Assembly (NCBI GenBank): GCA_946699065.1
Contig: CAMPDV010001223.1
Coordinates: forward strand, 62,001 to 126,000
Source: Loxodes magnus
Lineage: Eukaryota > Ciliophora > Karyorelictea > Loxodida > Loxodidae
Direction of reading: 5' to 3'
DNA: 64,000 nucleotides
Shown here: positions 3,773 to 64,000 of the stretch, piece by piece
Layout: each line of letters starts with the position of its first letter
How positions within the stretch are numbered: the first letter of the stretch is position 1
Program-made: the position numbers and the translations under genes
The notes under the pieces: generated by a model
Databases searched by the model: none
Told to the model about the DNA's origin: nothing
The model's input: the letters and a program-made list of their open reading frames with translations, nothing else

Positions 3773-4804
3773 ATGGCCTCAACCAAGACAATAATTGCGC
3801 TATTCGCTGTTGTATGCGGCTTAGTTGCTTTGGTGATGTTTGCAGCACCAAACAACGGAAGAGCTTTGATGGGAAAATTGAAGTTCTATGATAGTGCTGA
3901 AGAATCATGGTTTGAATTCCAAGCCTTCAGCAAGAAATTCAACAAGACTTATAACTCCTTCGAAGAAATGTAGCAAAGATACAACATTTTCCATGACAAC
4001 TATTACTGGATTAAAGTCTAGAACTAGAGAAACATGATCACAAGATTCTCAGTTAACCACTTCGCTGATTTGACTAACGAAGAATTCAGAAAGACTTACT
4101 TAGGATACAAGGATAACTCAAACAGAACAAAGAACTATGTATATGAATATGTATAAAATGTTGCTGACTCTCTTGATTGGTAATAGAAGGGAGCTGTAAC
4201 ACCTATCAAAGATTAAGGCTAATGCGGAAGCTGCTGGGCTTTCAGTGCTGTAGGAAGTTTGGAAGGAGCTTACTTCCAAAAGACGGGACAATTGGTATCC
4301 TTCTCGGAATAAGAACTAGTTGACTGCTCTAATTCATTTGGCAACCAAGGATGCAATGGTGGATGGATGGACTCTGCTTTCTAATATTGGCAAAAGAATA
4401 GTGAAGAAGCTGAATCTGATTATCCATATACTGGTTAAGATGGATCTTGTAAATAGATCTCAACCAAGGGTATTACCGTTGTAGCAAACTTTGTAGATGT
4501 TCCCACTAATGAAGCTGCTTTGAAAAATGCAGTCAATGGACGTGTTGTCTCAGTTGCAGTCGATGCTTCAAGTTGGTCTTATTACTCTGGTGGCATTTAT
4601 GACGGATATTGCTCAACTTCACTTGACCACGGTGTAACACTTGTTGGTTATGGAAATGAAAATGGACAAGACTACTGGAGAATCAAGAACTCATGGAATA
4701 CATGGTGGGGAGAGAATGGTTACATTAGATTGAAGAGAACTGACTCTAGCTCTTCAGGTGGACAATGTGGAGTTGCCACTGCTGCATCATACCCAGTTCT
4801 TTGA
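3773..4804 (+). CDS. Cathepsin L-like cysteine protease precursor (pap. family C1A)
   Basis: Encodes a 343-residue papain-family (C1A) cysteine endopeptidase precursor, likely secreted or lysosomal. Residues 1-25 form a hydrophobic signal segment. The inhibitory propeptide includes NHFADLTNEEF at 95-105. The mature enzyme starts near 131. The catalytic triad is visible: Cys154 in CGSCWAF, His286 in LDHGV and Asn306 in NSW. The oxyanion Gln148 sits at the expected spacing of six residues before Cys154. That Gln is encoded by TAA, and about a dozen TAA/TAG codons in total fall at plausible Gln positions. All eleven Trp codons are TGG. The frame ends at TGA right after ASYPVL, the usual C1A end. 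No intron is needed. The length is normal for the family. This is the only intact copy of three in the window. Confidence 0.95.
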
Positions 4805-9103: not shown

Positions 9104-11741
9104 ACAAATTAAATAAAGATTTATTGGTATAAATCGTAATAATTGTCAACTTTGTAAAGTTATCAAGTAGCAAGTAGCATAATGAAGTATCAAGTAAAGA
9201 TTATTAGTATATAACATCAGTAGTCTGCAATAATAAAACTTACTTCTTTCTGGTAAATTTTGATTGACAGTCTTTCTAAATAATTCAGACTCATAGTAAC
9301 TTATTTAATTAAATAAACTTTTTGATTTAATAAATATATTAATAAAAAATGGTTATTTGCTTGCTTTATTTTAAGTTACAGAAACTTAAACTAGCTTAGT
9401 ATTTTACTAACGATAGCTCCTTTTTAGATACACCTAGTTCATTATTTATTATATTCTTCTATCTCCTTCACTTCTCGCCGCTATCATTTTTCACTTGATC
9501 TTGAAATAATCTTTTATATAGTTATTGCACTTGTTAACCTTCTTGATTTGGTTGAGTTTATTCATTTACTTAGACTAAATGTATCTTCATTCATACTACA
9601 ACTAAGCTTCTTTAAACATAAATCTAATCTCAAGTCTTAAATAGACAAATTATCAAAAACTTCTAAATTACCTCCAGTATTACTAGTTCTCAACAGATCT
9701 GCTTTGCTTTACATTTATAAACTAAATAACTCCTTGCTTGAGCTACTAGTTTTCAGACTTATTTCTCTTTTAGCTAAACTTATCATTTCTAAGCTTTTAT
9801 ATCTTAGACACTTCTTCTTAAATAATCTAATATTGAGCATTTCAGTTCATTCTAAATAATTTAGTATATGCTTAAGCTTTTGAACTTAGCTCAGAAACTT
9901 GAATATTTCTAGCTAAATCTCAGAAATTAAGTAGCTGATTTAGCTTTATCGACTAGACTCTGACTATAGATAAGTTTTACTTAGTTTTTTGATATTCACT
10001 TATTTCTTGCATCATCAAAAAACTTAAATTTAAAGAATAAGGGAATCAACTACTTATCATATCTTTAACATTCGAAATTGTCATGCTGATATATACCAGC
10101 AAGATTTATCTCCAATAACAGACTATTAGAAGAATTTTCCCATATAAATAACTTCTTATGCATCACTAAACTGTAAAAAATATCTTAGTCTAACCTTTTA
10201 ATTGCAATTCCTACTATCCATTCTAGAATTACTTAGCTACTTTTTCATATAAAAGCTATTCCATTTTTGCTTTAACTAGCTTAAAAGATTATATTATTTA
10301 CCTTTTATTTAATTCTTAGACTAGAACAAAAACTTAAAAATGAATAAAGGAAATAAGCAAGGTAAAAGGATTAAAACCTTAAACTATTAAAGTATTAGCA
10401 TCAATAAATGGATTTAATGCTTAGATTATTAAACATAACTTAATTTTACTTTCAAATTAGTCAATTAAAAGAAAAATACCTAGACTAATAAATAAAATGG
10501 CTTCTAGCAAGCTAATTATTAAACTATTAGTTTTCGTAAACAATTTAGTCGCTTTAGTGATGCTTGCAGCACCAAACAACAGAAGAGCTTTGATGAGAAA
10601 ATTGAAGTTTCATAAAAGTGCTGAAGAATCATGTATTGAATTCCAAGCCTTCGCAAAGAAATTCAACAAGACTTATAGTTCCTTCAAAAAGATAAAGCAA
10701 AGATACAATATTTTCCATGACAACAATTACTGGATTAAAATCTAGAACTAGATAAGCATTATTACTAAATTTGCCGTTATCCACTTCGCTGATTTGATTA
10801 ATGAAGAATTCAGGAAGAATTACTTTGGATTCAAAGATAACTTAATTAGGGAAATTAATTACGTATATGAATATGTATAAAATATTGCTGATTCTTTTGA
10901 TTGTTAACAGAAGAGAGCTGTAAATTCTATCAAAGGTTAAGACTAATGCGAAAACTACTGGACTTTCAGTAGTAGCAAGATGGAAGGACCTTACTTCATA
11001 AAGACTGGGTAATTGATATCCTTCCCTGATAATAATTAATTAACTGTTCTGGTCAATTTGTAATCATGGATGAAGAAGTGGATGGATAGACATTGCTTTC
11101 TAATATAGGCAATCTTATGGTGAAGATATTGAATCAGATTATCAATACACTGGTGTATATGGAAACTGCAAATAAGATTCATCCAAGGCTATTACCATTT
11201 TAACAAACTTTGTAGGAGTTCCCAATAAAGCTGCTTCGAAAAATACAGCAAATGGACGTGTTGTCTCATCTACTGCTGATACTTCAAATAGGCCTTTCTA
11301 TTTTGGGGATATTTATAATGGATAATGCTCAGCTTCAGCTAGCCATGGGGTAAATCTTGCTAGTTATGGAACTGAGTGAGAAAAAGGCTAATGGATAATC
11401 TAGAACTTATGGAATACATAATGGAGAGAAAGGATATAAAAGATGGAAGAAAACCGATTCAAGCATTTCAGCTGGACAATGTGTAGTTGCCTCAACTGAC
11501 TCACACCAATTCCCTGATAAAGTCAATTAGTATATAGACTAAATTTTTGTTTTTTCAATTAAATAATAATAAATACAGTGGTAAACCAACTTTGGTATAG
11601 CCACTTTAATAAAATAATATAACTCTTCAATTTTTTCAGTTTTAGACATAGCTATTATAATAATTTTACATTCTGTATCGCGAATAATTTTTTCGAAGTT
11701 ATATCTCTAATATTTCATCAACTGGTTTTCTTTATCTATAA
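9104..11741. repeat. Direct-repeat module, copy 2 (partial)
   Basis: Homologous to 2342-5034 and to the matching part of the right-hand copy (from about 62100). It starts with the conserved AAATTAAATAAAGA block and continues past the protease copy to a shared end near CTTTATCTATA. It lacks the minus-strand unknown gene that leads the other two copies. Confidence 0.85.
10497..11518 (+). pseudogene. Cathepsin L-like pseudogene (copy 2)
   Basis: The first 82 residues and the propeptide are clearly related to the intact protease at 3773. Within the catalytic domain the sequence breaks down. The active-site motif CGSCW has become CENYW, replacing the catalytic Cys by Tyr. Indels near 11040-11100 move the frame. 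An in-frame TGA follows the GT of the GYGNENG equivalent near 11376. The His region survives as SHGV and the Asn as NLW. It therefore cannot make an active C1A protease. The promoter-side GGTTAAAC block of the intact gene is absent. Confidence 0.9.
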
Positions 11742-24292: not shown

Positions 24293-27259
24293 TCAAAAAT
24301 CCAAATCAACTTCTATGTCGCTTTCTTCAAATTCCTCATCTTCAAATTCCTCATCTTCAAATTCCTCATATCCATTAAATATTTTTATTTTTTTAAACTT
24401 CTCTTTTAATCTAATAAACTAGTCTTCAAATTCAAAGTCCAAAAAAGTTACCTTTAAAATTCTTAAGTTTTTATAAATAGGATAAGGCTATTCATTTTCA
24501 TCATTTATTGGAAATGTGTTATTTGTAATTTAATTTCCACTTAAATCTAATGTTTATAATCTAGTTGCTAGTTATAATATTTTAGCAATATCTTAATCAT
24601 TTAGATTTAAACTATTAAGTTATAAGCTATTTAGCTATCTTATTTATACTATTTAATCTATCCAATTTTAATTTCCTTTTATTGTTAGTTAGTTCAGTTT
24701 TAATGTTTGTAAATATAGATTATTTTAGTTTATTACTTAGAAAAGCTAGCTGTTTATTTAAGTTAGTTAAGCAAGTTCTATTTACTTTAATCTTTTACAT
24801 TGTTAGAAAATAAAACTTAAAGTTTAGTGTGTTATTTGATTTAAGTCAATTAAACTTATTTATTCATAGTTCTATCCATAATTACCTATTTACTAAAGAG
24901 AAGAATTAGTAAGTTGTACTAAGCTTTTTAGTTTAAGTGACTAGATGTTATTTGCATTTTATAAAAGAATCTACATATTTTAATCACTAAAACTCTAACT
25001 ATCTTCAATACTAACTTTATATAGTTTACTATACTTAACTCCAAAATATTATTCAAATGCTTCTCTCTCAAAATTACCTTTTACCAATAAGCTTTATATT
25101 TTTCCATTTCTAACTTAATCGAAAATTTCCTAAGAAGAATCATAAAAATCAATAGCATTTAAGTTAGGACATAAATAAGTAAATTAAGAAGTATCTTAAG
25201 GATTGTTAATACTTAGTTCTTCGATGAATTATCCTTTTTATTCTAAATAGTCTTTTATATACTCTTATTATAGTTAAGGGATTTTTATTATTAGAATTCT
25301 AACTTTATTTAAGTTCATACAATATTAAGTTAAAAACTTTCCTTTCAATTCTTAAGTAGTTTAACTAGATTCTTAATAAATGATTTCTAATTTCTCAAGA
25401 TTTATTAAATATTAAATAAAATATAAATCATCATCCTTATAGCAACCTTTAAGTACTAAATTTTTTAAGTTTTAGTAAGGTAAAAAATTAGAAATAATAA
25501 ATGATTTTGAATAACTTAAAAGAGAAAAGTCTAGTAATTAATCTTTTTTTCCTTATTTTAAGTTAGTTCATTATCTAAATAGTAGACTATAATATAACTT
25601 ATTTTATAATTAATCTATCAAATGTTGAGATAAATTATTTAAATCAACTACTAGCTTTATTACATCTACATTCTATATTTATTTTATAGTTCAATTTATC
25701 TTGCTTTTTATATAATCTTCAGTTCCATAAAATGTTTTAATCTTTAAAAGCTAGAATTTATAATTATAGGAATAGAAAAACTTATTAGTTTTTTGTAAAG
25801 TGCAAATATCTTTAATCTTGAGGAATTCAAATATTTTATTAAGAATATTTTAAGTTTACTAGATTAGTAAGTGATAGCTTTACTTTTATTTTTTTCTTAA
25901 TTAATCTTGATAATTTAAATTTAATGACTAAGTAAAGCATTTTTATTAGATGAGAGATTAATTCATATTTTTATTAACTTTAAAATAAAAAGAGTCAAAA
26001 ATTCAACCATCATTGAATAATAACTACGATTATTTTCCTAAAAATTATGATTCAAATAATAAACCTTCATATTTATCACCATATTTTCATTTATAAATTC
26101 CTTATCCATGCATTTTATCTTTCAATCACTCTCCTTCATAAACATTTCCATTAGCATAAACATTTATTCCTTTTCCTTCTCGTAATTCATTGATTCATTA
26201 TCCTTCATATTTATCACCATTTTTTCATTTATAAATTCCTTATCCATGCATTTCATCTTTTAATCACTCTCCTTCATAAGAATTTTCATTAGCATAAACC
26301 ATTATGCCTTTTCCTTCTCTTAATCCATTTACAAAATGGCCTTCATATTTATCACCCTTTTTTCATTTGTAAATTCCTTATCCATGCATTTCATCTTTTA
26401 ATCACTCTCCTTCATAAGAATTTTCATTAGCATAAACCATTATGCTTTTTCCTTCTCTTAATCCATTTACAAAATGGCCTTCATATTTATCACCCTTTTT
26501 TCATTTGTAAATTCCTTATCCATGCATTTCATCTTTTAATCACTCTCCTTCATAAGAATTTTCATTAGCATAAACCATTATACCTTTTCCTTCTCTTAAT
26601 CCATTTACAAAATGTCCTTCATATTTATCACCCTTTTTTCATTTATAAATTCCTAATCCACTTTTTTTATCTTTTAATCACTCTCCTTCATAAACATCTC
26701 CACTAACATAAACCATTATGCCTTTTCCTTCTTTTAATCCATTTATAAATTATCCTTCATATTTTTATCCTTTTTTTCATTTGTAAATTCCCTATCCATG
26801 CATTTTATCTTTTAATCACTCTCCTTCATAAACATCTCCATTTTCATAAACCATTATTCCTTTCCCTTATCTTAATCCATTTACAAAATGGCCTTCATAT
26901 TTACTTCCATCTTTTCATTTATAAATTCCTTACCCATTCATTATGTTGTTTTTTCATTCTCCTTCGTATTGTGACCCATTTATTAATTTTAATTCTCCAC
27001 TTCCTTATACTTTGTTATTTTCAAATTATCCTTCATATTTATTTCCACTTTTTCAGATATAAATTCCTAATCCTTTTTTTTTACCTTTTGATCATTCTCC
27101 TTCGTAAATATCTTAATTCTCGTAAAACATTGTTCCTCTTCCTTATCTCTATCCTTAATAAATCTATCCAACATATTTCCTTTTATTCTTTCATCTTTAA
27201 ACTCCATAAAGTGTTTTTTCTTAGTTTTGTGATCCGCTTTTAAGACTTTTCTCTTTCAT
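24293..27259 (-). CDS. MORN-repeat/leucine-rich-repeat protein, short form, 988 aa
   Basis: One unbroken frame of 989 codons runs from ATG (27259) to TGA (24293). The N-terminal part is an array of MORN motifs (YEGEW, GQGIYKW, YEGxFVNGLREGKG), six regular 46-residue double units plus weaker ones at the start. The C-terminal half is a leucine-rich-repeat region with LxxLxLxxN-type periods, ending in an acidic tail with a repeated DEEFE motif. MORN arrays usually bind membranes or act as scaffolds; LRRs bind proteins. The Trp of YEGEW is TGA in every unit, while the gene's last codon is also TGA. The copy in the right arm ends at TGA at the same place, which supports it as the stop. Confidence 0.85.
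24318..24368 (-). repeat. 15-bp tandem repeat coding for acidic tail
   Basis: TCTTCAAATTCCTCA occurs three times in a row (on the plus strand), coding for repeated DEEFE on the minus strand. The right-arm gene has only one unit, so the left protein carries about ten extra acidic residues. Confidence 0.8.
26060..27240 (-). repeat. 138-bp MORN unit array, 6 regular units
   Basis: A TCACTCTCCTTCATAA block recurs every 138 bases at about 26126, 26263, 26401, 26539, 26677 and 26815, with two more diverged units after it. Each unit codes for two 23-residue MORN repeats. Units differ mainly at positions that also vary in the right-arm array. Confidence 0.9.
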
Positions 27260-27910: not shown

Positions 27911-27969
27911 TTCCTATTAAAACTTTTGATTTGATATAATTTTATTCAAATTATCTATATTATTTTAAA

Positions 27970-29780: not shown

Positions 29781-30097
29781 GGCGAACTATATTAATGATT
29801 AAGGTTTTTATTGGCATTTTGTATAGAGTAAAACCGTGATGATTCTGAAAATGGATTTATTCATGTCAAATTATTATTAGTAGATAAATTTCAGATCTTA
29901 ATTTATAATTTTTATATTTAATAATATTTTATTTGAAATACAAATAGATCACACAATTAGACAAGTCGAAATTAGCAGATATAAATAATTCTAAAAATTC
30001 TTAATTATGAATGTATTACATTTCCTTGGATGTAATATCTTAATATACTATTAAGTTGATAAGTTGAATTATAAAAAGCTAGTAAGAAGAAACTTTC

Positions 30098-35574: not shown

Positions 35575-38198
35575 ATGAAGAGAATAGAAATAATTAGTTT
35601 AGTAATGCTTCTAATATCAAGTATTACCATCATAACTATACTTACAATTACATCATTACAATGTAAATACCTTATTTATACTACACCTCTACATTATAAC
35701 ATATCACTTGTAGTCTCATCAAACACCACCAACTATTATCTCTTATATCCACCTCTTTGTCAGCACCATTTCAAATTACTTTCATTTACGTCTCTACCTT
35801 AAGAAGATAAACACCAACAAACAAAGGAAGAAGCTTAGCTTGAAAAGGGCCTAAATATAGAGCATTAAATTGAGAAATTGAAACTAGATTAAAATGTAGG
35901 CTACTAATAAATAAAAGAATAAGAAAAGTTAAAAGAAATGAAAATTAGGACTAAGTATATAGTTAATAAGTAAGCAATAGCTAAATTTAGATATTTTGGA
36001 AAAATACAAATATTCTCAATTACATTATTCAGTTCTTAGAAAATAAAGATATTCCTATTTTATAATTAGTCAGTAGATACTTCAATTTGTATAGATACAA
36101 ATTTAACTACCTAGAGATTCAAAAGTATTAAGAAAATTATATTATTACTAAAAATATAATCTAATTAACTTTCAAGTAAATTTTATAATCAGATACTAAG
36201 TAACTGGCAATTACAGCTTTCAAATTTTCTGATAATTGAAAAATTAAGTTTATGGTAGGATGCTTAAAAGTATCTAATAGAGACTGTAATATTTAAGAAG
36301 CAGTTAATGGCTGCAAATTTAAGAAAGTCATTTATAAAATATGAACTTGAATAATAACATACTATTTATCATCTCTTAATGCTATTAGCTAAGGTAATTA
36401 AGAACATACAAGTTATAGAAGATTAATCTTTATATTTTATGCAATAACTACCTAAACTAGAATCCAATGACTTAAAAGATGCTGAATAATTAACAGAACA
36501 TATTTTATAAGATTTTTGTAATAATTTGAACTTGAAAATTAGAAAATGAAAATGTAAAGGAATTTTTATAAGTAAAAGGACAAAAATTGTAAGGAATTTA
36601 AATATTTTCTAAAGATAATTTATAAAGTCTAGTATAATTTTGTCCAAGCTTAATTGATATACAATCTATAAAAAATTTTAAACTAATATTTTAAGAAATT
36701 TGGGGATTCTTAACTATAAACGTTACGAATATTCTGCTAATATGCTTCAGGGTAAGAAATGTAAGAGTTTTTTAGGCATAAACTATAGAGTTTATAAAAT
36801 ATAGTTATTTGCAATTTAAAACACTATAATTCTTACTTATTTACTCCTTTATTTTTAACTCTCCTAATTTGAAAAATTTCATTTATTTAATTTTATTTCT
36901 AAAAAGGATAAATGAGAAAATGCATAGATATAGGAATAAGAATAGCAATTAGTGAATATAATTAGCATCTTTAATTTAAGTTATAAAGGTTGTTAATAAT
37001 AGGAGCTGTATAAATAAGTAATAAATTTGTCACTTTAATATTACTCAATTCTCCATTCTTAAAATAATTATCATTATAGGGAGTCAGCTTTATAGATGAT
37101 TAAAATTTAAAGAAATCTAATTATACCTTTGATTTATATTTCTAAACTTTAGAGTAGGATATGAAGTCTGAAAATAAAAAGTTAGGTTACCTTACGAATT
37201 TAAAAGTTTGAGATTGTGATAAATTTAGAGATGATATTTTATAATTTATCCTAATAAACTCTCCTAATTTAAAATAATTTAAACTAAGATTCAGTTTAAA
37301 GTACTACTTTTCATTTACTAGGAATTTATAATTAGAACATTTAATATTTTATATTAGAGTAACTTAATCTACTATAACTTTAAGCTATTAATTTCATATT
37401 CTAAAATTGCTAAAAAGTAAAAGAAATTTATTTTAGTTATATAGAAGGATTTTCAAAAGAGACTTTCGAAATTCTAAATACTCAATATTAGAAAATATAA
37501 AGCATTAAGTGAATAGTTGTGTCCTCAGTCAAAAAAATTGAATTAATGGAATAGTAAAAATAACTACTTTATAAACATTATCGTTAAATGATTGCAATTT
37601 AGGTAACTAAGATGTTATTTAGATAATAAAAAGATGTAAAAATCTATAATAATTGATCTTAGGAAAGAATGATAGTATCATATAAGAAGCATTTCGTATA
37701 AATGATGAATAGGGATTCTAATATTAAATTTGAAATAATTTAAGAACTTTAGATTTATAAAATTGCTTTAAGATTAATAGCAATTAAATAATGAATTTAA
37801 GTAAAATGTTTACAAATATTCATATTAAATATAGATAATTTAATAAATACAACAATCTAGAACAACTATATTTTGATCTGAGGGATTGTCACATGAAGAA
37901 TTATTAAAGAGCAAACAATTTTAAAACTTAATAAATAAAATATCTTATTTAAAATTTGATTATATAGCTAAATAAAGTAAAACTATTACTAAATTTTAGT
38001 TTTAAGGTTTAGCAATTTTTTCTTAGATAATTTTTAATTTTATTTTTATTGTAAATGCATTTAATTTCATTAAATGAAAAATCCAAATTCAACTTTTAGA
38101 AATCTTTTACATTCTCAAGATAAAGTTTCTAAAATAATCTACTCAGAAGTATTAAAAAATTAAGACAGATTATTTAGTTTTAGTTTATAAAATAGTGA
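35575..38198 (+). CDS. Membrane-anchored leucine-rich-repeat protein (one frame change)
   Basis: ATG at 35575 begins a hydrophobic segment of about 25 residues (signal or membrane anchor), followed by a long Gln/Lys/Leu-rich region. The C-terminal part carries leucine-rich repeats: NSPFLKQLSLQG, LTNLKVWDCDKF, NSPNLKQFKL, LQTLSLNDCNLGNQD, CKNLQQLIL and NNLRTLDLQNC. The first part is in one frame to about 37000; the LRR part from about 37030 to TGA 38196 is in another. An intron or a frameshift near 36980-37055 is therefore needed, and the gene may be damaged. The Trp of QIWNNL is TGA (37731-37733). Two related copies lie at 14580-15840 (minus) and 55081-56560. The C-terminal half of the MORN-LRR proteins is the same type of repeat. 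Confidence 0.6.
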
Positions 38199-38920
38199 TA
38201 AAAAAATAGCAAAAATAAGTATTTATGCCTACTATTTATATTATTAATAAAGATATAAAAGAAAACATATTTGCTAATATTAAAAATACTAGAATAAAAT
38301 ATAATAAACAATCATTTATCTATATTCTTAAAATTTAATCATATATATTTATTTTTAATATCATATTTCCAATTAAAATAAATGTTGCTTTTGATAAAAA
38401 TAAAAGCTGGATAGAGCTTTTAGAAAGTAATAAAAACTAACAAAATTATTAAAAATAATTTTAACATTATTTTGATTTTAGAAAAATCATTATAATAGTG
38501 CATTATTTGTTATTAGTTTTTTAGATTAAAATATTTTCAATAAAGCTAGTAAAGTTTTTAAGCTTCTTAATTTTTAAATTAGTTATTTTTATAATTATTA
38601 ATAAATAAATTTTAATGTTATGCTAATTCTTAATTATAATACTCTTTTATGTAATATTTAATTTTACTTTTATTTTAATTTATTTAATATATTTAGATAA
38701 TATGCTTTTAGTTTTAGGAGCCTAATTATATTTAATTAGCATATTAAATAAATCAATATTCTAATTTATTATATTTTAAAAAATATTTGTCTTTACTTGG
38801 AAATTTTTATTACTAAAGATTTAATCCATTCTTAGCTTCTTCAGTATATAATATTAATTATTATTTTAATTTACTAAAAAACCATTCATTTAATATAATA
38901 AATAAGATTAGAGAGTTTGT
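38199..38920. other. AT-rich spacer
   Basis: Very AT-rich; no gene seen. Confidence 0.5.
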
Positions 38921-41076: not shown

Positions 41077-41360
41077 AATTCATTGAGGGTAAAGAAAGCA
41101 AAAATTTTCAAATCTAGCAATAAATAAGAAAAATGAAAAAGAATAATAAGAATTATCGAACTTATCAAATAAAGTCCGTCAGGAATACCAACTATTTATA
41201 CTTAACTATAATCTTAAAACCTTACATTAAAGATCTCTACTTTTAATTACTTAATGTTATTTGAAATGTAAATACATAATTTAAATAAATAAACTTTACT
41301 TAATTTTAATAATTAACTTCTTAAATTGTAAAGCTTAATCTCATAAAGGTATATGCATGC

Positions 41361-42250
41361 TCATTTTGCAATTTTCCACTTTCTCACTGTACAGTCAGCG
41401 GCACTAGATACGATTCATTTATTAACTTTATTCAATGTTATAGATCATATTTCATTTGAGTGCCCATAGTGAGACTATACATTCAACTGTTTCAAAATTC
41501 CATATCTTGATTGATGTGTCTCATGAACCAGATATTATAAAACTTCAATCATTACTTATCTAAACACTTGATACAGTAATTTTAGTTTGAAGAGTTCTAA
41601 TAAGTTGACCTTATCAAATTCCGTATCTTTATCGTTCTATTTGAACTTCCCGATACGATTAATTTTTGGTAATTTGATGTAGCTACAGAGTTTAAAATAT
41701 CATAATATCCCCAATATGTACTCTTTAACAAACCTGTTGCATAATCTCATATCTTAATAGTATAATCCCTACTTCCCGATATGATTCCTTTCTAATTACT
41801 TGATATCGCTACAGATCATATTTTGCATATTTATCTATAAAGGATTTTATCTAAATATTAAGAATTACCTTGACCTTAATCATCTTTAATTAATTTGACA
41901 AGTTTTTAAAAGCACAAGTTAGGTAAGATTTCATATTAAAATTGTTATATATGCGAAAATACAAAAGATGTAATAAACTTTAACAATTTAAAAGTGTTAT
42001 AGTGATTACAGTTGATTAAACTAACAGTGATATTTAATATCAAGAAAATTGATACCTAGAAATTTAAATTCTTTATCTATATTCATATTTTTATTTAATC
42101 ATGTCCAAAATGCCAAACTATCTTAACGGCTAATAACTAAAGAAGATGTCTCATTCCTTTCTAAAATTACTTCATTAACGATTAATTTATAACTTTGCCG
42201 TACGAAATACGCAAAACTTCATCGAATGCCAATCTATTTAAATTTCTCAT
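41361..42250 (-). pseudogene. WD40-repeat protein gene, two frameshifts
   Basis: ATG at 42250 starts a frame that runs through IWSVAISSNQKGIISGSRD and YTIKIWDYATG, typical WD40 repeat ends, where the W of IKIWD is TGA (41747-41749). The next repeat (SGSWDTSIKIWN, with its first W as TGA at 41521-41523) is in a second frame, and a last repeat (GHSNEIWSI ... TVRKWKIAK) is in a third. The ATG-to-TGA distance is not a multiple of three, as this demands. WD40 proteins form beta-propeller scaffolds. Two separate one-base shifts within 300 bases point to a pseudogene, unless unrecognised introns remove them. Confidence 0.75.
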
Positions 42251-42969: not shown

Positions 42970-43869
42970 TTAATGTGCTTTATAGTTTCACTTCTAGCTA
43001 AAAAATCTGAAATTGGAAAGCCTATAAAATTTATTTTGATAATTTTATTAAGTAAATTAATTTAAGCTTGAAAATTGATAAATTAAAAACTTCTCTAGTA
43101 GAGATTCTATTTTAATCAGTGTATCTATTTTCAAGCTAATATGTAAGCAATATTTTCTTAATTAAAGTTAAATTAAAACTGATAATAGAAAATTTAAATA
43201 TACCTTTTTTTAATTATTTATTAATAGCTAGCATTTAATACTTTCCTTTCTAATTTATAATTATTACTAAATCTCTAAGCACTTTTTTAATATTTTCTCA
43301 TCTTTATGCTCTTAAAAAATAAAAGAAATTAAACAATTATCATTAAAGATATAATATTGTAGACTGCTCAATTTCTCCGTAATAATATCAAGTTCCTTTT
43401 AATAAATTTGTAATTAATATAAATAGACATCAAAATAAACTTTTGTTTTTAATGTTTATTCTAAAGCTAATATTTAAATAGGTTACCTATATTTGTACTT
43501 TTTAATCTTTATAATTTACTTTTATAAAACTTAAAAATGTTTAAATAATTTTCAAAATCGAAAGTTTCTTCTTAATAGCTTTTTATAATTCAACTTATCA
43601 ACTTAATAGTATATTAAGATATTACATCCAAACAAATGTAATAAACTCATAATTAAGAATTTTTAGAATTATTTATATCTGCTAATTTCGACTTGTCTAA
43701 TTGCATGATCCATTTGTATTTCAAATAAAATTATTATAAATATAAAATTATAGATTAAGATCTTATATTTATCTACTAATAATAATTTGACATGAATAAA
43801 TCCATTTTCAGAATCATCGTGGTTTTACTCTATACAAAATGCCAATAAAAACCTTAATCATTAATATAG

Positions 43870-44769
43870 TTCGCCTTTGACTTAAAAGTAAAAGTTGTTT
43901 TTTCATAATCAGCTCTTCTCCTAAATTCTTCCGATCTTGCCTTTAATCTTAAATCTTGTTTCTTTCTCCTAATTTTTTCGGTTCATGAGTGGTAAAATTT
44001 AGTAGATCTTTATTTCGATTCCTAAAAGTTAATATTTTGTTAGATGTTATTTCTTATTCTTTTTTGTCTTGGAAACTTCGGAAATAAATGTCACGTACGT
44101 TTGTAAATAGAATCTTTCTCTTGGTCTATGAAGTATTCTTTCTTGTCATTCTATTTTCATGAAGATTCCTTTTGAAGTCTTCTTCAAATTTTCTTCAATT
44201 TATTGGAGTATTGAATCTAATTTTACTCAATTTTTCTCGTCTTGCTCTCTCATTATTCGAAATCATTCTCTAATCCTATCATTCGTTTATAAATTTCACT
44301 TTAAATCTTCTGTCTATCATATGATTTCATCATCATCTTCATGATTTACTAGTTCTTAACTTATTTCGAATATTTCTTCCTACTATGAGTTTAAATTCTC
44401 ATCAAGTTTTTTTAGTTTTTGATAAGTGTATAAATTAACTTTATCATCTAAAAAGAGTCCATTTGTTCTATTTAAATATTATCTAATTCAAAGGTATCAG
44501 GGTCTATATTGAATTATCATACTTTAACTTCTTTATTTATTTTTTATTTCTTTATTACTTTTAGTGATTCTGATGAATAGTCTTCTTTTTTAGTTTTCAA
44601 CGGAGATTTTGAGCGCTTTTTATAATTTTTTCTTTAAATCTTCTTTATTTGTTAATTGTTGGTCTGAAGATGGTTGGACTTATGAATTAAGACGTGGCAA
44701 GAGAAAGGGCTTCTAGTTTTCTCTATTGCTCTGAGAAGATGGTAAAAGACTCTTCTTGATGCTAGCCAT
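43870..44769 (-). pseudogene. Zinc-knuckle family copy, right arm, degenerate
   Basis: Starts MASIKKSLLPSS, the counterpart of 28873-29780. The early part differs from the left copy by frame-shifting indels (the right copy reads NREN where the left reads YQRK). The middle and the degenerate knuckle region are close to the left arm. Neither copy keeps a full zinc knuckle. Confidence 0.5.
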
Positions 44770-46380: not shown

Positions 46381-49300
46381 ATGAAAGAGAAAAGTCTTAA
46401 AAGCGGATCACAAGCCTAAGAAAAAACACTTTATGGAGTTTAAAGATGAAAGAATACAAGGAAATATGTTGGATAGATTTATTAAGGATAGAGATAAGGA
46501 AGAGGAACAATGTTTTACGAGAATTAAGATATTTACGAAGGAGAATGATTAAAAGGTAAAAAAAATGGATTAGGAATTTATATCTGAAAAAGTGGAAATA
46601 AATATGAAGGATAATTTGAAAATAACAAAGTATAAGGAAGTGGAGAATTAAAATTAATAAATGGATCACAATACGAAGGAGAATGAAAAAACAACATAAT
46701 GAATGGATAAGGAATTTACAAATGTAAAGATGGAGGCAAATATGAAGGATAATTTGTAAATGGATTAAAAGAAGGAAAAGGAATAATGGTTTTTACTAAT
46801 GGAAATGTTTATGAAGGAGAGTGATTGAAAGATAAAAAACATGGATAAGGAATTTACAAATGTAAAGATGGAGGCAAATATGAAGGATAATTTGTAAATG
46901 GATTAAGAGAAGGGAAAGGAATAATGGTTTATGAAGATGGAGATGTTTATGAAGGAGAGTGATTGAAAGATAAGAGGCATGGATAAGGAATTTATAAATG
47001 AAAAAAGGGTGATAAATATGAAGGCCATTTTGTAAATGGATTAAGAGAAGGGAAAGGAATAATGGTTTATACTAGTGGAAATGTTTATGAAGGAGAGTGA
47101 TTAAAAGATGAAATGCATGGCCAAGGAATTTATAAATGAAAAAATGGAAGTAAATATGAAGGCCATTTTGTAAATGGATTAAGAGAAGGAAAAGGAATAA
47201 TGGTTAATGAAGATGGAGATGTTTATGAAGGAGAGTGATTAAAAGATGAAATGCATGGCCAAGGAATTTATAAATGTAAAGATGGGGATAAATATGAAGG
47301 ATAATGAATAAATGGATTAAGAGAAGGGAAAGGAATAATGGTTTTTACTAGTGGAGATGTTTATGAAGGAGAGTGATTGAAAGATAAGGGGCATGGATAA
47401 GGAATTTATAAATGAAAAAATGGAGATAAATATGAAGGCCATTTTGTAAATGGATTAAAAGAAGGAAAAGGAATAATGGTTAATGAAGATGGAGATGTTT
47501 ATGAAGGAGAGTGATTGAAAGATAAAATGCATGGATAAGGAATTTATAAATGTAAAGATGGAAGTAAATATGAAGGCCATTTTGTAAATGGATTAAAAGA
47601 AGGAAAAGGAATAATGGTTTTTACTAGTGGAGATGTTTATGAAGGAGAGTGATTGAAAGATAAGAGGCATGGATAAGGAATTTATAAATGAAAAGATGGA
47701 AGTAAATATGAAGGCCATTTTGTAAATGGATTAAAAGAAGGAAAAGGAATAATGGTTAATGAAGATGGAGATGTTTATGAAGGAGAGTGATTGAAAGATG
47801 AAATGCATGGCCAAGGAATTTATAAATGAAAAAATGGAAGTAAATATGAAGGATAATGAATAAATGGATTAAGAGAAGGAAAAGGAATAATGGTTAATGA
47901 AGATGGAGATGTTTATGAAGGAGAGTGATTGAAAGATAAAAAGCATGGATAAGGAATTTATAAATGAAAAGATGGAAGTAAATATGAAGGATAATGAATA
48001 AATGGATTAAGAGAAGGAAAAGGAATAATGGTTAATGAAGATGGAGATGTTTATGAAGGAGAGTGATTGAAAGATAAAATGCATGGATAAGGAATTTATA
48101 AATGAAAAGATGGAAGTAAATATGAAGGATAATTTGTAAATGGATTAAAAGAAGGAAAAGGAATAATGGTTAATGAAGATGGAGATGTTTATGAAGGAGA
48201 GTGATTGAAAGATGAAATGCATGGCCAAGGAATTTATAAATGAAAAGATGGAAGTAAATATGAAGGATAATGAATAAATGGATTAAGAGAAGGAAAAGGA
48301 ATAATGGTTAATGAAGATGGAGATGTTTATGAAGGAGAGTGATTGAAAGATAAAAAGCATGGATAAGGAATTTATAAATGAAAAGATGGAAGTAAATATG
48401 AAGGCCATTTTGTAAATGGATTAAAAGAAGGAAAAGGAATAATGGTTTTTACTAGTGGAGATGTTTATGAAGGAGAGTGATTGAAAGATAAGAGGCATGG
48501 ATAAGGAATTTATAAATGAAAAGATGGAAGTAAATATGAAGGATAATTTGTAAATGGATTAAAAGAAGGAAAAGGAATAATGGTTAATGAAGATGGAGAT
48601 GTTTATGAAGGAGAGTGATTGAAAGATGAAATGCATGGCCAAGGAATTTATAAATGAAAAGATGGAAGTAAATATGAAGGCCATTTTGTAAATGGATTAA
48701 AAGAAGGAAAAGGAATAATGGTTTATGTTAGTGGAGATGTTTATGAAGGAGAGTGATTGAAAGATAAAAAGCATGGATAAGGAATTTATAAATGAAAAGA
48801 TGGAAGTAAATATGAAGGATAATGAATAAATGGATTAAGAGAAGGAAAAGGAATAATGGTTAATGAAGATGGAGATGTTTATGAAGGAGAGTGATTGAAA
48901 GATAAAATGCATGGATAAGGAATTTATAAATGTAAAGATGGAAGTAAATATGAAGGCCATTTTGTAAATGGATTAAAAGAAGGAAAAGGAATAATGGTTT
49001 ATGTTAGTGGAGATGTTTATGAAGGAGAGTGATTGAAAGATAAAAAGCATGGATAAGGAATTTATAAATGAAAAGATGGAAGTAAATATGAAGGATAATG
49101 AATAAATGGATTAAGAGAAGGAAAAGGAATAATGGTTAATGAAGATGGAGATGTTTATGAAGGAGAGTGATTGAAAGATGAAATGCATGGCCAAGGAATT
49201 TATAAATGAAAAAATGGAAGTAAATATGAAGGATAATGAATAAATGGATTAAGAGAAGGAAAAGGAATAATGGTTAATGAAGATGGAGATGTTTATGAAG

Positions 49301-52300
49301 GAGAGTGATTGAAAGATAAAAAGCATGGATAAGGAATTTATAAATGAAAAGATGGAAGTAAATATGAAGGCCATTTTGTAAATGGATTAAAAGAAGGAAA
49401 AGGAATAATGGTTTATGTTAGTGGAGATGTTTATGAAGGAGAGTGATTGAAAGATAAAAAGCATGGATAAGGAATTTATAAATGAAAAGATGGAAGTAAA
49501 TATGAAGGCCATTTTGTAAATGGATTAAAAGAAGGAAAAGGAATAATGGTTAATGAAGATGGAGATGTTTATGAAGGAGAGTGATTGAAAGATAAAATGC
49601 ATGGATAAGGAATTTATAAATGTAAAGATGGAAGTAAATATGAAGGCCATTTTGTAAATGGATTAAAAGAAGGAAAAGGAATAATGGTTTATGTTAGTGG
49701 AGATGTTTATGAAGGAGAGTGATTGAAAGATAAAAAGCATGGATAAGGAATTTATAAATGAAAAGATGGAAGTAAATATGAAGGATAATGAATAAATGGA
49801 TTAAGAGAAGGAAAAGGAATAATGGTTAATGAAGATGGAGATGTTTATGAAGGAGAGTGATTGAAAGATGAAATGCATGGCCAAGGAATTTATAAATGAA
49901 AAAATGGAAGTAAATATGAAGGATAATGAATAAATGGATTAAGAGAAGGAAAAGGAATAATGGTTAATGAAGATGGAGATGTTTATGAAGGAGAGTGATT
50001 GAAAGATAAAAAGCATGGATAAGGAATTTATAAATGAAAAGATGGAAGTAAATATGAAGGATAATGAATAAATGGATTAAGAGAAGGAAAAGGAATAATG
50101 GTTAATGAAGATGGAGATGTTTATGAAGGAGAGTGATTGAAAGATAAAATGCATGGATAAGGAATTTATAAATGTAAAGATGGAAGTAAATATGAAGGCC
50201 ATTTTGTAAATGGATTAAAAGAAGGAAAAGGAATAATGGTTTTTACTAGTGGAGATGTTTATGAAGGAGAGTGATTGAAAGATAAGAGGCATGGATAAGG
50301 AATTTATAAATGAAAAGATGGAAGTAAATATGAAGGCCATTTTGTAAATGGATTAAAAGAAGGAAAAGGAATAATGGTTAATGAAGATGGAGATGTTTAT
50401 GAAGGAGAGTGATTGAAAGATGAAATGCATGGCCAAGGAATTTATAAATGAAAAAATGGAAGTAAATATGAAGGATAATTTGTAAATGGATTAAAAGAAG
50501 GAAAAGGAATAATGGTTTATGTTAGTGGAGATGTTTATGAAGGAGAGTGATTGAAAGATAAAAAGCATGGATAAGGAATTTATAAATGAAAAGATGGAAG
50601 TAAATATGAAGGATAATGAATAAATGGATTAAGAGAAGGAAAAGGAATAATGGTTAATGAAGATGGAGATGTTTATGAAGGAGAGTGATTGAAAGATAAA
50701 ATGCATGGATAAGGAATTTATAAATGTAAAGATGGAAGTAAATATGAAGGCCATTTTGTAAATGGATTAAAAGAAGGAAAAGGAATAATGGTTTATGTTA
50801 GTGGAGATGTTTATGAAGGAGAGTGATTGAAAGATAAAAAGCATGGATAAGGAATTTATAAATGAAAAGATGGAAGTAAATATGAAGGATAATGAATAAA
50901 TGGATTAAGAGAAGGAAAAGGAATAATGGTTAATGAAGATGGAGATGTTTATGAAGGAGAGTGATTGAAAGATAAAATGCATGGATAAGGAATTTATAAA
51001 TGAAAAGATGGAAGTAAATATGAAGGCCATTTTGTAAATGGATTAAAAGAAGGAAAAGGAATAATGGTTTATGTTAGTGGAAATGCTTATGAAGGAGCGT
51101 GATTAAAAGATAAGAGGCGTGGATAAGGAATTTATAAATGTAAAGATGGAAGTAAATATGAAGGCGATTTTGTAAATGGATTAAAAGAAGGAAAAGGAAT
51201 AATGGTTTATGTTAGTGGAGATGTTTATGAAGGAGAGTGATTGAAAGATAAGAGGCATGGATAAGGAATTTATAAATGAAAAAATGGAGATAAATATGAA
51301 GGCCATTTTGTAAATGGATTAAAAGAAGGAAAAGGAATAATGGTTTATGTTAGTGGAGATGTTTATGAAGGAGAGTGATTAAAAGATAAAATGCATGGAT
51401 AAGGAATTTATATCTGAAAATATGGTGATAAATATGAAGGTTTATTATTTGAATCATAATTTTTAGGAAAATAATCGTAGTTATTATTCAATGATGGTTG
51501 AATTTTTGACTCTTTTTATTTTAAAGTTAATAAAAATATGAATTAATCTCTCATCTAATAAAAATGCTTTACTTAGTCATTAAATTTAAATTATCAAGAT
51601 TAATTAAGAAAAAAATAAAAGTAAAGCTATCACTTACTAATCTAGTAAACTTAAAATATTCTTAATAAAATATTTGAATTCCTCAAGATTAAAGATATTT
51701 GCACTTTACAAAAAACTAATAAGTTTTTCTATTCCTATAATTATAAATTCTAGCTTTTAAAGATTAAAACATTTTATGGAACTGAAGATTATATAAAAAG
51801 CAAGATAAATTGAACTATAAAATAAATATAGAATGTAGATGTAATAAAGCTAGTAGTTGATTTAAATAATTTATCTCAACATTTGATAGATTAATTATAA
51901 AATAAGTTATATTATAGTCTACTATTTAGATAATGAACTAACTTAAAATAAGGAAAAAAAGATTAATTACTAGACTTTTCTCTTTTAAGTTATTCAAAAT
52001 CATTTATTATTTCTAATTTTTTACCTTACTAAAACTTAAAAAATTTAGTACTTAAAGGTTGCTATAAGGATGATGATTTATATTTTATTTAATATTTAAT
52101 AAATCTTGAGAAATTAGAAATCATTTATTAAGAATCTAGTTAAACTACTTAAGAATTGAAAGGAAAGTTTTTAACTTAATATTGTATGAACTTAAATAAA
52201 GTTAGAATTCTAATAATAAAAATCCCTTAACTATAATAAGAGTATATAAAAGACTATTTAGAATAAAAAGGATAATTCATCGAAGAGCTAAGTATTAACA

Positions 52301-53181
52301 ATCCTTAAGAAACTTCTTAATTTACTTATTTATGTCCTAACTTAAATGCTATTGATTTTTATGATTCTGCTTAGGAAATTTTTGATTAAGTTAGAAATAG
52401 AAAAATATAAAGCTTATTGCTAAAAGGTAATTTTGAGAGAGAAGCATTTGAATAATATTTTGGAGTTAAGTATAGTAAACTATATAAAGTTAGTATTGAA
52501 GATAGTTAGAGTTTTAGTGATTAAAATATGTAGATTCTTTTATAAAATGCAAATAACATCTAGTCACTTAAACTAAAAAGCTTAGTACAACTTACTAATT
52601 CTTCTCTTTAGTAAATAGGTAATTATGGATAGAACTATGAATAAATAAGTTTAATTGACTTAAATCAAATAACACACTAAACTTTAAGTTTTATTTTCTA
52701 ACAATGTAAAAGATTAAAGTAAATAGAACTTGCTTAACTAACTTAAATAAACAGCTAGCTTTTCTAAGTAATAAACTAAAATAATCTATATTTACAAACA
52801 TTAAAACTGAACTAACTAACAATAAAAGGAAATTAAAATTGGATAGATTAAATAGTATAAATAAGATAGCTAAATAGCTTATAACTTAATAGTTTAAATC
52901 TAAAAGATTAAGATATTGCTAAAATATTATAACTAGCAACTAGATTATAAACATTAGATTTAAGTGGAAATTAAATTACAAATAACACATTTCCAATAAA
53001 CGATGAAAATGAATAGCCTTATCCTATTTATAAAAACTTAAGAATTTTAAAGGTAACTTTTTAGAACTTTGAGTTTAAAAACTAGTTTATTAGATTAAAA
53101 GAGAAGTTTAGAAAAATAAAAATATTTAATGGATATGAGGAATTTGAAGAAATCAATCTAGACGTCGATTTGGATTTGTGA
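46381..53181 (+). CDS. MORN-repeat/leucine-rich-repeat protein, long form, 2266 aa
   Basis: One unbroken frame of 2267 codons runs from ATG (46381) to TGA (53179) when TAA/TAG are Gln and TGA is Trp. After about 35 residues come MORN motifs: YEGEWLKG, YEGQFENN, YEGEWKNN, then about 34 regular 46-residue double units (to about 51430). A 560-residue leucine-rich-repeat part follows (SLKLKSLVQLTN, LQTLKLNQL, LQTLDLSGNQITNN), ending LDVDLDL. The array alone holds dozens of in-frame TGA codons at the conserved Trp of YEGEW. The last sense TGA is at 51934; none occurs in the final 1.2 kb before the stop. Likely a membrane- or cytoskeleton-associated scaffold; partner unknown. Compared with the left-arm form it is 1278 residues longer, equal to 28 units of 46 minus ten acidic-tail residues. 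Confidence 0.92.
46690..51430 (+). repeat. 138-bp MORN unit array, about 34 regular units
   Basis: A GGAATAATGG block recurs every 138 bases from about 46780 to 51340, 34 times by my count. After it, units carry one of a few variants (TTAATGAAGATGG, TTTTACTAGTGG, TTTATGTTAGTGG). Neighbouring runs of variants recur in the same order, for example around 48780-49130 and 49740-50100, a sign of block duplication. Units are nearly identical, so growth is recent. Confidence 0.93.
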
Positions 53182-59299: not shown

Positions 59300-60560
59300 T
59301 AAAATAAAAGAGGGAAACCAGGTTTATCTGTTTTTGGAATTATTGATATTAGAATGTGGAGACTTAATATAGAATCTGCTATCCACGTACTATGGAAACT
59401 AGTAAATAAGCCTCTTTGCTAGCATCAGAGAGATGTTATTTAAATCTCCTTTAATTTTCTTCTATCTTAAGATCTGGTAAAATTAAGCTTGAAATAGGCT
59501 GAAGTAATTTCATTCTATAATTTTTACTTGGAAGTTATAACTAAAGCATTAATTTTTAATCTTCATTTTAGGCGTAGCCCTCTATAAGTTAGTTTAAATA
59601 ATAAGCATTCCTAGACAATTGGATCTTACAGCATTGCTTAATAAAATTGCCTAGGTCTTTAACTTCATTTTCTGTTTTTCCTGCTTAATATGAACTTGAA
59701 TTCTGTCTTAGGTACGCTTTGTAATTTTTATCTTCTACTACTGGAATTTTCTCACTTCAAACTTAACTAATTCTATCTCATTAAAAAGGTTATTATCCAT
59801 CTCACCATATCTGAACTTCTATATTGCTTTACCTAATGTAATTCTATAAAAATGGAAGTCTTTTTAAGCTTATACTAATATAACTAAACCTGCTTTATAT
59901 TTATAAGGAAGTTCATTAAATCAAGTCTTCTAGAATCCATAAATTACTAAACTTCATCTTTTCTTGTTCATTTTTACTCCCAATAACATACTCTTATAAT
60001 CATTATTCATAAATAATGATTGCCATATAAAGGAATGCGGTTAAACTAATGTAACTGCTGAGATTATCTTTAATCTACTTTTTCAACGACACCAATGAAT
60101 TAAGAAAGCTTCTCGTTTTTCTGATTGATAAGATTTTTTTACCAAACCTCCTTTATCTTTCAAAGGAAGATAATTATTAATATAACTTCCTTATATCTCC
60201 TTGTCTAGATTGCTTTAGATATAATTTTTATCTCAAGCAATTTTCAACTTATTTCACTCTTAATTTAGCTTTCTTCCTATAAATTATCAGCCTTTCAAAT
60301 TGCTTACCTCTATTGATTTAACATAATAACTATCCTTATAATTCAGCATATAACCAAGCGTACCTGAATTAAAGGAGATAAATTATCTACCATCGCTATT
60401 TAGTAGCTATTTTTCTGAACTAACCATAGCTAAACTCTTCTTACTTCTTTATCTATCAATTCAAATAGCAAGATCTTAACTTTTCTCCTTCCGTTTGCAG
60501 GCAATAACCACTAAATAATTTAAAGTATTTTGATCATATTTTTCAGGTTCTGTTATATTA
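59300..60560 (-). CDS. Unknown protein gene, right copy (C-terminal ~415 codons)
   Basis: On the minus strand one frame stays protein-like for about 415 codons, with many Trp encoded by TGA (for example in KGWQFIGRK, NQEWNKLKIAWDKN and NKKRWSLVIYGFQKTWFNEL). Balanced hydrophobic/charged composition and agreement with the left copy at 1-230 argue for real coding. Upstream, at about 60640-61000, another frame is coil-like (NLARAEQLSKLKQVQQLEN), so an intron or a frameshift lies near 60600. The end near 59300 is not fixed. I do not recognise the family. A C-terminal motif (YVDSRFYIKS) recurs at about 11790. Confidence 0.5.
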
Positions 60561-63500
60561 CAATCCTAAAGTATTATTTATATAAGACAGACTTTTACCT
60601 CTTTCTATCTAGTTTGTAAGATAAAAGAAAATGCTTATTATAGCTGATAGAAGAACACATTTCAACTTTCTCAGCTAGAATAGGAAATTTTTCCTAGAAT
60701 TTTTAAATTAGCAGATATAACTTTAATTCTTTAGTCTTTAGCTGACATTCAGAAAACTAACTTCTTAAGCTTCTTAAGCTTTTAAATCATTATCTGTATT
60801 CTCAAGCTGCTAAACTTACTTCAATTTGCTTAATTACTCTGCTCTTGCTAAGTTACCTTCAATGGATTTATTTAGGAGATTTACTAAAAAGGCAGCTGAC
60901 TTTAAGTACCATATTTAGATTTTCCAAGCCTTTTCGTTAAATTTAGCCAATGAGTCTCTATAGATTTAAGGTTAAAGCTTAATTATAATATTAGCCTCAC
61001 ACTGATAATCTAGTTTGAGTAGCTTTGTTAACTAGTAGATATTTTAATATCTGGATCTGAATACTTTTGAATCTTTAGATCTTTTGAACAAGAAAGCAAG
61101 GGAATAAGAGTATTGTAGAAAAAATAAGGAAGAATCCAAGTCTAGAAACATAAAAGTAAAAGCTTAATCTTCTTAGATTTTTAGGTTTCTTTATTAACTA
61201 TGAGGAGGTTTAAATAAAACGCAGAATGAAGAGTAATAACTTGAAAGCAAATTCAAGTGATTAAATATCAACCAGGAAAAAGGAAACTAATAAATTAAAT
61301 TAAAAGACCTTAGTCTACATTCCATTATTGCCTTAAACAGAATTTGAAGTGTTGAGCATTCGAAATTAAATTAAAGTAATTTAAATTGCAAAATAAGCAT
61401 TACAAACTAAGCAGAAACCTATTTCAAGTAGATTAAAAGGATAAGATAAGGCAGGAGAAGATTGACAATTAGCATACCTTCCTCTTTAATTTTTTTTACT
61501 ACAATTAAGCTTTTAACTGTCATCTTGAAGAGTCAGAGCTAGTATTAAATATTAGTGAAATATCTCATTGGTCCTGTTTTTTATTGATCAGTAGAAACTA
61601 ACTACAAGAAAGATATTAAAATGAGACATTAAAATTGATAAAGCACAGAAGTATTTCAAATAAGAAAGCATAGCTTAGAGAAAGCCAAGTTAATTATTAT
61701 GTTTAATCACCGAAAAATATTTAAAACAGATTCATAGTTGGAATTCAAGAAGATTAACTTCCATTTTTAAGAAAATTAAGTAACAAAATTCCTTTAGAAG
61801 AGATTGATTTTGATTTTAGAGTAAATCTTTCTACGAAGAAACAGCTTTAAATAACTGATTTTACTTACCTTTATTATTTTATTGCTAGAGGTTACCCAAA
61901 AGGCTTGAAAAATAAAAAGAACAATATTAATATAAGACTTAACAAAATCAAAAGTTAAAGAGTGGTAATAATAATGCTGAATTTTAGTATACTGACAGTA
62001 TTGTATAAGGTATGCAACAAGTCTGCAAAAGTGTTATGTATGAAATAAGCAAAATTTATTAATACTTTAGTGAGATTTCTTAAGGTTTAAACACTTACTA
62101 AGCATGCAGAAATTAAATAAAGACTTATTGGTATAAATCATAATAATTACTCAATTTAGTAAAGTTATCAAGTAGTAAGTAGTGTAATGTAGTATCAAGT
62201 AAAGGCTATTAGATTGCAAAACCAATAGCCTGCCTTAATAAAACTTACTTCTTTCAGGTAAATTTTGATTGACGGTCTTTCTATATAATCCAGATTCATA
62301 GTAACTTATTTAATTAAATAAACTTTTTGATTTAATAAATATATTAATAAAAAATGGTTATCTGCTTGTTTTATTTTAAGTTACAGAAACTTAAACTAGC
62401 TTAGTATTTTACTAACGATAGCTCCTTTTTAGATATACCTAGTTCAATATTTATTATAGCCTTTTATCTCCTTCTCTTCTTGAAGCTATCATTTTTCACT
62501 TGATCTTGAAATAAGCTTTTGTATAGTTATTGCACTTGTTAATTTGGCTGAGTTTATTCATTTACTTAGACTAAATGCATCTTCCTTCATTCTACAACTA
62601 AGCTTCTTTAAACATAAATCTAATCTCAAGTCTTAAATAAGAAAAATTTTCAAAAACTTCTAAAATACCTCCAGTATTACTAACTCTCAACTGATCTGCT
62701 TTATTTTACATCTATGAACTAAATAACCCCTTGCTTTAGCTACCAGTTTTCAGACTTATTTCCCTTTTAGCTAAACTTATAGAAACTAAGTTTTTATTTC
62801 TTAGACATTTCTTCTTAAATAATCTAATATTGAAAATCTCAGGCCATTCCAAGGAATTTGTTGATACTTAAGCTTTTGAACTTAGCTCAGAAACTTGAAT
62901 ACTTCTAGCTAAATCTCAAAATTAAGTAGCTGATGTAACTTTATCAATTAGACTCTGACTAAAGATAAGTTTTTACTTAGTTTTTTGATATTCACTCCTT
63001 TCTTGCATCATCAAAAAACTTAAATTTAAAGAATAAGGCACTCAACTACTTATCATATCTGTAACGTTCGAAATTGTCATGCTGATATATACCAAAAAGA
63101 TTTATCTCCAACAATATACTGATAGAAGGATTTTCCATATAAATAACTTCTTACACATCAACTAAACTGGAAAAAATATCTTAGTTTAGCCTTTTAATTG
63201 AAATTCCCACTATCCATTCTAGAATTACTTAGCACACTTTTCCATATAAAAGCTATATAATTTTTACTTTAACTAACTTAAAAGATTATATTATTTACCT
63301 TTTATTTAATTATTAGAAGAATGGACTAGAATAAAACTTAAAAATTAATAAAGGAAATAAACAAGCTAAAAGGATTAAAACTTTAAGCTAGTAAAGTATT
63401 AGACACAAACAAGTGTATTTAATGCTTAGATTATTAAACATAACTTAATTTTACTTTATAGTTAGCCAATTAAAATAAAAATCCCTAGATTAATAAATTA

Positions 63501-64000
63501 AATGGCTTCTAGCGAGCTAATAATTATTAGTTGTCCTAAACAATTCAATCGCTTTAGTGATGCTTGCAGCACCAAACAACAGAAGAGCTTTGATGTGAAG
63601 ATTGAAGTTTCATGAAAGTGCTGAAGAATCATGTATTGAATTCCAAACCCTCGCTAAGAAATTAACAAAACTTATAGATATTTCTAAGAGATAAAGCAAA
63701 GCTACAATATTTTCCATAACTATTTTTACTGGATTAAAATCTAGAACTAGATGAACATGATCATAAGATTCGCAGTTAACCACTTCGCTGTTTTGATTAA
63801 TAAATAATTTAGAAGTAATTACTTTGGATACAAGGATAACTTAAATAGGGAAAATAATTACATATATGAATATATATAAAATGTTGCTGATTCTCATGAT
63901 TGAGAATTGAAGGGAGCTGTAACACCTGTCAAAAATTAAGATTAATGCAGAATCTGCTGGGCTTTCAGTACTGTAGGAAGTTTTGAAGGAGCTTACTTAA
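59815..64000. repeat. Direct-repeat module, copy 3, cut by window end
   Basis: Begins with the same bases as position 1 and follows copy 1 to the end of the window, with the unknown gene first and the protease copy last. Identity is highest in the first 285 bases. The unknown gene extends left beyond 59815, so the repeat probably also extends past the left edge of the window in copy 1. Confidence 0.92.
63502..64000 (+). pseudogene. Cathepsin L-like pseudogene (copy 3), partial
   Basis: The ATG at 63502 is followed by a one-base deletion near 63527 that shifts the frame inside the signal segment; further small changes occur near 63660-63690. The active-site region near the window end reads CRICWAFS, so the catalytic Cys remains but the preceding Gly-Ser is changed. 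The rest lies outside the window. It is broken at its N-terminal end, unless an alternative start is used. Confidence 0.8.

Follow-up and report, generated by a model that had tools for sequence, protein, structure and literature searches.

According to the published account, karyorelict ciliates, Loxodes included, use genetic code table 27, in which UGA is the sole stop codon and can encode Trp at a sufficient distance from the poly(A) tail (PMC11441545). The same account describes the 3' UTRs of Loxodes as short (median 41 bp), its introns as short too (about 17 bases), coding UGA and UAA as depleted over ~20 codons before the stop, and the macronuclear assembly of Loxodes magnus as repeat-rich and 706 Mbp in size (PMC11441545). 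A tRNA-Trp(CCA) with a 4-bp anticodon stem has been reported for Loxodes (PMC13092985), and in a general model nearness to transcript ends overrides translation (PMC4967479). The use of all three stop codons as sense codons that we describe here is already known, since it is published for Loxodes, and it is therefore not novel; what is new is gene-level detail only. A first-pass annotation of the sequence had guessed at a karyorelict ciliate, which fits the table 27 code published for Loxodes (PMC11441545).

We analysed a stretch of 64,000 nt (the window), to which all positions below refer unless another contig is named. The genes and relics on which the comparison turns are the following.

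46381..53181, plus strand: long gene with MORN, F-box-like and LRR-like parts; 2266 residues, then a TGA stop
46534..51440, plus strand: MORN array of the long gene, with a repeat unit of 46 codons (138 bases); 35 units selected by a Trp-containing motif all have TGA and not TGG for Trp
51937..53178, plus strand: C-terminal LRR-like part of the long gene; 414 codons without TGA before the stop, holding the sole TGG (codon 2154)
53179..53181, plus strand: TGA read as the stop of the long gene; the paralogue also ends in TGA, and similarity is lost shortly downstream
24293..27259, minus strand: short, intact MORN paralogue; 988 residues plus a TGA stop, with 21 internal TGA and 1 TGG
3773..4804, plus strand: papain-family (C1A) cysteine protease with I29 propeptide, read with TAA/TAG as Gln; 11 TGG
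10756..11613, plus strand: decayed C1A copy, within a direct duplicate of 2327-5036
41200..41900, minus strand: WD40-like relic, split over reading frames, with TGA at some WD40 positions

The frame of the long gene at 46381-53181 comprises 6801 bases, or 2267 codons from ATG to TGA. Read with table 11 it is interrupted by 200 stops before its last codon, whereas table 27 yields a single 2266-residue protein. It holds 79 internal TGA codons and one TGG, 103 TAA and 18 TAG (121 codons read as Gln in total), 17 CAA and no CAG, with UGA accounting for 3.5% of its codons (79/2266). Codon counts and translation bear out what the first-pass annotation had proposed, namely a gene of exactly this position and length whose frame is open only with TAA/TAG as Gln and TGA as Trp.

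Pfam finds MORN matches in 70 stretches of the long gene (E = 0), and the window has 41 matches to a MORN DNA pattern that includes TGA (counting both gene copies), compared with none in 100 shuffles; given these two results, the open MORN frame with its TGA codons is not due to chance. The codon at the YEG-Trp site is TGA in 35/35 units and TGG in 0/35, as had been noted before, but the motif by which the units were picked itself required Trp, and the count therefore shows merely that TGG is unused at this site. In those same 35 units the Gln of HGQG is encoded by TAA in 26/35 and by CAA in 8/35, with Leu in the remaining one. Differences among the array units show no concentration at third codon positions. 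TGA also lies outside the regular array, at codons 23, 1707, 1811 and 1852, and the sole TGG is the Trp nearest to the stop. The F-box match of the long gene is weak (E = 0.023, and 15.0 bits, below the Pfam cut-off of 20.5). The role of the protein may be of a cytoskeletal or ubiquitin-adaptor type.

The single TGG of the short paralogue and that of the long copy share one alignment position. The MORN arrays of the two copies differ by whole 46-codon units, and their last parts by in-frame length changes. When compared with solved structures, the short paralogue gave sequence matches to FAP266 (E = 6.8e-42), MORN1 (E = 7.4e-41) and F-box/LRR-repeat protein 2 (E = 9.5e-9), which are here combined in one protein. 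Both genes are carried by an inverted duplication (24354-31509 versus 53150-43055; 93-96% identity in three BLAST pieces), the similarity of which stops near the MORN stop codons. An insert of ~893 bases (30117-31009), with TTTTGAAAATTATT on both flanks, is found in one copy of this duplication and is absent from the other, which is compatible with a retrotransposon-type insertion. We looked for purifying selection between the MORN copies in two stretches outside the array, one of 103 codons at the N-terminal side and the other the C-terminal part, and saw none there (19 nonsynonymous versus 6 synonymous codon differences), so that the pair shows an intact frame with no clear protein constraint. 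A codon-position bias between the duplicates was also sought, with no clear signal.

To assign meanings to the codons, residue frequencies were derived from 120 outside MORN proteins (120 listed of 3459), in which 2265 repeat units were selected by a rule blind to the Trp columns, and were used to score the window units with their stops masked. At 75 TGA sites of the long copy, Trp scored 297.9 bits, followed by Phe (183.5), Tyr (70.7) and Cys (12.3), and at 17 sites of the short copy Trp scored 64.2 and Phe 39.3 bits. Because the units of the array are copies of each other, TGA was also scored once per column, giving 7.45 bits for Trp and 4.55 for Phe. The result for TAA is more mixed: Gln leads in the long copy (88.1 bits, His 42.3), His leads in the short copy (16.6, Gln 13.7), and when each column is counted once Gln is not the top residue in either, which means that the MORN array alone fixes TAA poorly. 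For TAG, Gln is top in both copies, from 2 and 3 sites only.

The window protease was scored in the same way with 120 outside C1A proteins (120 listed of 7694). Here TAA gave 15.5 bits for Gln over 7 sites and 0.1 for the runner-up residue, TAG gave 0.4 bits for Gln over 5 sites, and TGG gave 24.2 bits for Trp over 11 sites. It had been claimed that Gln148 of the protease (numbered from the Met at 3773), which we take to be the oxyanion Gln of papain, is encoded by TAA; the codon is indeed TAA (4214-4216), and in that column Gln has a frequency of 1.00 after rounding, counting those of the 120 outside homologues without a gap there. The 3' end of the gene rests on a Pfam match that reaches the end of the profile and on the paralogues, the alignment having put 1 of the 120 homologues in the last columns. 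TGA occurs in this gene only as the stop (4802-4804), all 11 of its Trp codons being TGG, and the window protease therefore backs TAA as Gln and not TGA as Trp. It lies in the first of three direct copies (1-4275, 9090-11747 and 59815-63998; 83-91% alike by BLAST), of which the second holds the decayed protease and the third runs off the window.

As the protease of the window is without internal TGA, its relatives elsewhere in the assembly (705,730,643 bases, 7843 contigs) were used as an independent test. At least 142 C1A matches were found (117 of 593 candidates scored), many of them full length without TGA, and some carrying as many as 8. We took 20 loci from this listing, 13 with TGA and 7 without, and called undisrupted those with a single hit in one frame (13/20: L009, L011, L012, L017 and L020-L028) and disrupted those with hits in two or more frames (7/20: L010, L013-L016, L018 and L019). 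In the undisrupted loci, 16 of 21 in-frame TGA fall on the 11 Trp columns of the window protein, where 0.67 would be expected; these are distributed as 6/8 in L009, 5/7 in L011, 3/3 in L012, 1/1 each in L017 and L021, and 0/1 in L020, while the other seven undisrupted loci have no TGA. Nine of the 21 lie on the five columns where 98-100% of the outside homologues have Trp. For the disrupted loci the figure is 11 of 45, with 1.44 expected. Both groups are thus above chance, and the difference between them has a Fisher P of 9e-5; the split was chosen once the results were known, and the loci are relatives of one another, which makes the P values indicative only.

A change of TGG to TGA is expected in dead genes too, and constraint therefore matters. 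In 8 unsaturated pairs that include a TGA-bearing undisrupted gene, dN/dS was 0.08-0.20: 0.081, 0.119 and 0.169 in three pairs for L009, the locus with 8 TGA; 0.189 for L011-L012 and 0.183 for L011-L027; and, measured against the window protease, 0.154 for L012, 0.124 for L017 and 0.203 for L020. The pairs L012-L027 and L011-window were saturated, synonymous sites were near saturation in several others, and L021 was outside the dN/dS set. TGA-free pairs gave 0.161 (L022-L023) and 0.257 (L022-window), and for the disrupted L010 the values were 0.494 with the window protease and 0.229 with L017. Pairwise dN/dS averages both branches, so a recent loss of function would escape notice, and for this reason we place the weight on dN/dS together with an unbroken frame and the 5-6 Trp columns that are TGA in L009 and L011. 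The protease relatives lend independent support to TGA as a Trp codon. Taken with the outside homologues, these same-assembly paralogues support the reading put forward at first pass, in which TGA is Trp and TAA is Gln, as well as the use of TGA as a stop; TAG as Gln is consistent with the scores, weakly so when taken on its own.

The alternative that survives best, and which we still regard as very unlikely, is a ciliate with a code of the table-6 type (TAA and TAG for Gln, TGA solely for stop), whose MORN array would be a pseudogene along which TGG-to-TGA changes were spread by concerted evolution. Such a code would suit the window protease, which uses TGG 11 times and internal TGA never, and much of the window does consist of decayed duplicates; the MORN paralogues are under little constraint, and the disrupted protease loci too carry TGA on Trp columns, in an excess as simple TGG-to-TGA decay would give. 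Against this reading, each MORN copy stays in a single frame, and where the two were compared their lengths differ by whole codons only; TGA codons also lie outside the regular array; and L009 and L011 are undisrupted over 343 query residues with TGA in 6 and 5 Trp columns and low dN/dS. Where table 6 would have UGA never as a sense codon, the profile scores, the C1A columns and dN/dS all point to sense UGA.

The ends of the genes speak to a different alternative, a Condylostoma-type code (table 28) with the same sense meanings but with TAA and TAG also ending genes. All three window genes (long MORN, short MORN and protease) end in TGA, and among the undisrupted C1A loci TGA is found at the aligned C-terminal end in 10/13, one codon further on in 2/13 (L024 and L026) and eight codons further on in 1/13 (L009; C7:1317640-1319268). 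This last locus has TAA exactly at the conserved end, as table 28 would allow, and it is the exception among 16 gene ends, the other 15 being without TAA or TAG as the end. With TGA standing at the conserved end, or one codon past it, in 12 of these 13 loci, and with UGA as the only stop in the published Loxodes code (PMC11441545), we consider table 28 highly improbable here. The sense TGA nearest to the stop lies 36 codons away in L011, 40 in L009 (32 when counted to its TAA) and 415 in the long MORN gene; in these few genes there is thus a gap in sense UGA over the ~20 codons before the stop, a feature of table 27. A rule of a ~400-codon TGA-free zone before stops was also considered, and is ruled out by the sense TGA of L011. 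Finally, TGA might stand for a residue other than Trp, for instance Cys (as in Euplotes) or Phe, since at one array site it alternates with TGT (Cys) and at another with TTT (Phe), but the probability of this is negligible given how strongly the MORN profile favours Trp over both and how the TGA of the undisrupted C1A loci concentrate on Trp columns.

Several other features of the window were noted. In the WD40-like relic, TGA presumably stands at some of the positions where WD40 repeats often carry Trp. A pair of LRR-like stretches (36560-38260, plus strand, and 14290-15960, minus strand; 68.9% alike by BLAST) looks by eye like the C-terminal region of the MORN gene; it was examined as a possible case of TGG/TGA exchange between paralogues and rejected, as its length differences are not multiples of three, and is treated as a pair of relics. 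Lys/Glu-rich, coding-like stretches with in-frame TGA are present at 28978-29745 (plus strand) and at 43869-44663, 19754-20779 and 33790-34461 (minus strand), and a Pfam search (E up to 0.1) gave no match for those spanning 28978-29745, 19754-20779 and 33790-34461. A gene search based on codon usage converged on the MORN arrays or on AT-rich runs, and served solely to choose stretches. No tRNA genes were found in the window, nor any Rfam match, and in a search of the assembly with RF00005 (63 of 42786 candidates scored) the 30 loci read all contained tRNA-Lys(TTT), and some tRNA-Ala(TGC) as well. The TGA-MORN pattern had no match in viral contigs, in a collection that may omit records of this genome.

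The window is, then, very probably macronuclear DNA of Loxodes magnus or of something extremely close to it, read with table 27, and the MORN-LRR gene very probably a normal gene of this code with TGA as its Trp codon, multiplied by its array. The nuclear code would have UAA and UAG as Gln, and UGA as Trp inside genes and as the sole stop codon close to the 3' end of the mRNA; the long gene would be unremarkable under this code, its Trp codon merely happening to be TGA; and unit duplication together with gene conversion would have multiplied TGA along the array, leading to the extreme UGA count. Homogenisation of the array by copying of one unit is perhaps the simplest reason for this UGA density. 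What the analysis establishes are the sense meanings of TGA and TAA, TGA as a stop, and the low dN/dS of the TGA-bearing proteases. The table 27 features found here are UGA as Trp inside genes, UAA as Gln, and UGA also as stop, and a published code without a dedicated stop codon is in this way confirmed from raw sequence.

A further idea, which we think unlikely, is that under an ambiguous code 5'-ward tandem arrays, being far from the poly(A) tail, act as a refuge where UGA could become fixed for Trp at no cost; arrays rich in Trp would then be saturated with UGA, while 3'-proximal domains and short genes keep UGG. The Trp codons are TGA in 79/80 cases in the long MORN gene versus 0/11 in the neighbouring short protease, and, if the idea were true, there would be a gradient on the scale of whole genes, well beyond the published ~20-codon depletion zone. 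Running counter to it, the short genes L009 and L011 have TGA less than 50 codons from the stop. The interest that remains is small, and lies in a gene with 3.5% UGA and in a family of paralogues trading TGG for TGA; protease paralogues that keep or swap the two codons at the same Trp positions amount to a natural experiment. There is also a warning for annotation, as standard ORF callers shred these genes, and decayed copies gain TGA as well.

Among known systems, Parduczia sp. and Condylostoma magnum resemble what we see here in that all 64 codons have a sense meaning and termination depends on context near transcript ends (PMC4967479). Overall UGA usage is 0.120% in Parduczia and 0.042% in Condylostoma (PMC4967479), compared with 3.5% in the long MORN gene alone, and in Condylostoma, unlike in table 27, the other two codons serve as stops too. 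Blastocrithidia has also reassigned all three stops, with UGA as Trp as here, but with UAR as Glu and UAA as the stop (PMC12153298), and all three are likewise reassigned in Amoebophrya ex Karlodinium (PMC6394959), which, like Blastocrithidia, belongs to another lineage. Among the literature matches listed, none links MORN repeats to the table 27 code. The closest counterpart is table 27 as described in the published account of Loxodes magnus itself (PMC11441545), with the same UAA as Gln, probably the same UAG as Gln, the same UGA as both Trp and stop, probably the only stop here too, and a genome likewise rich in repeats; no tested feature of this locus differed from it.
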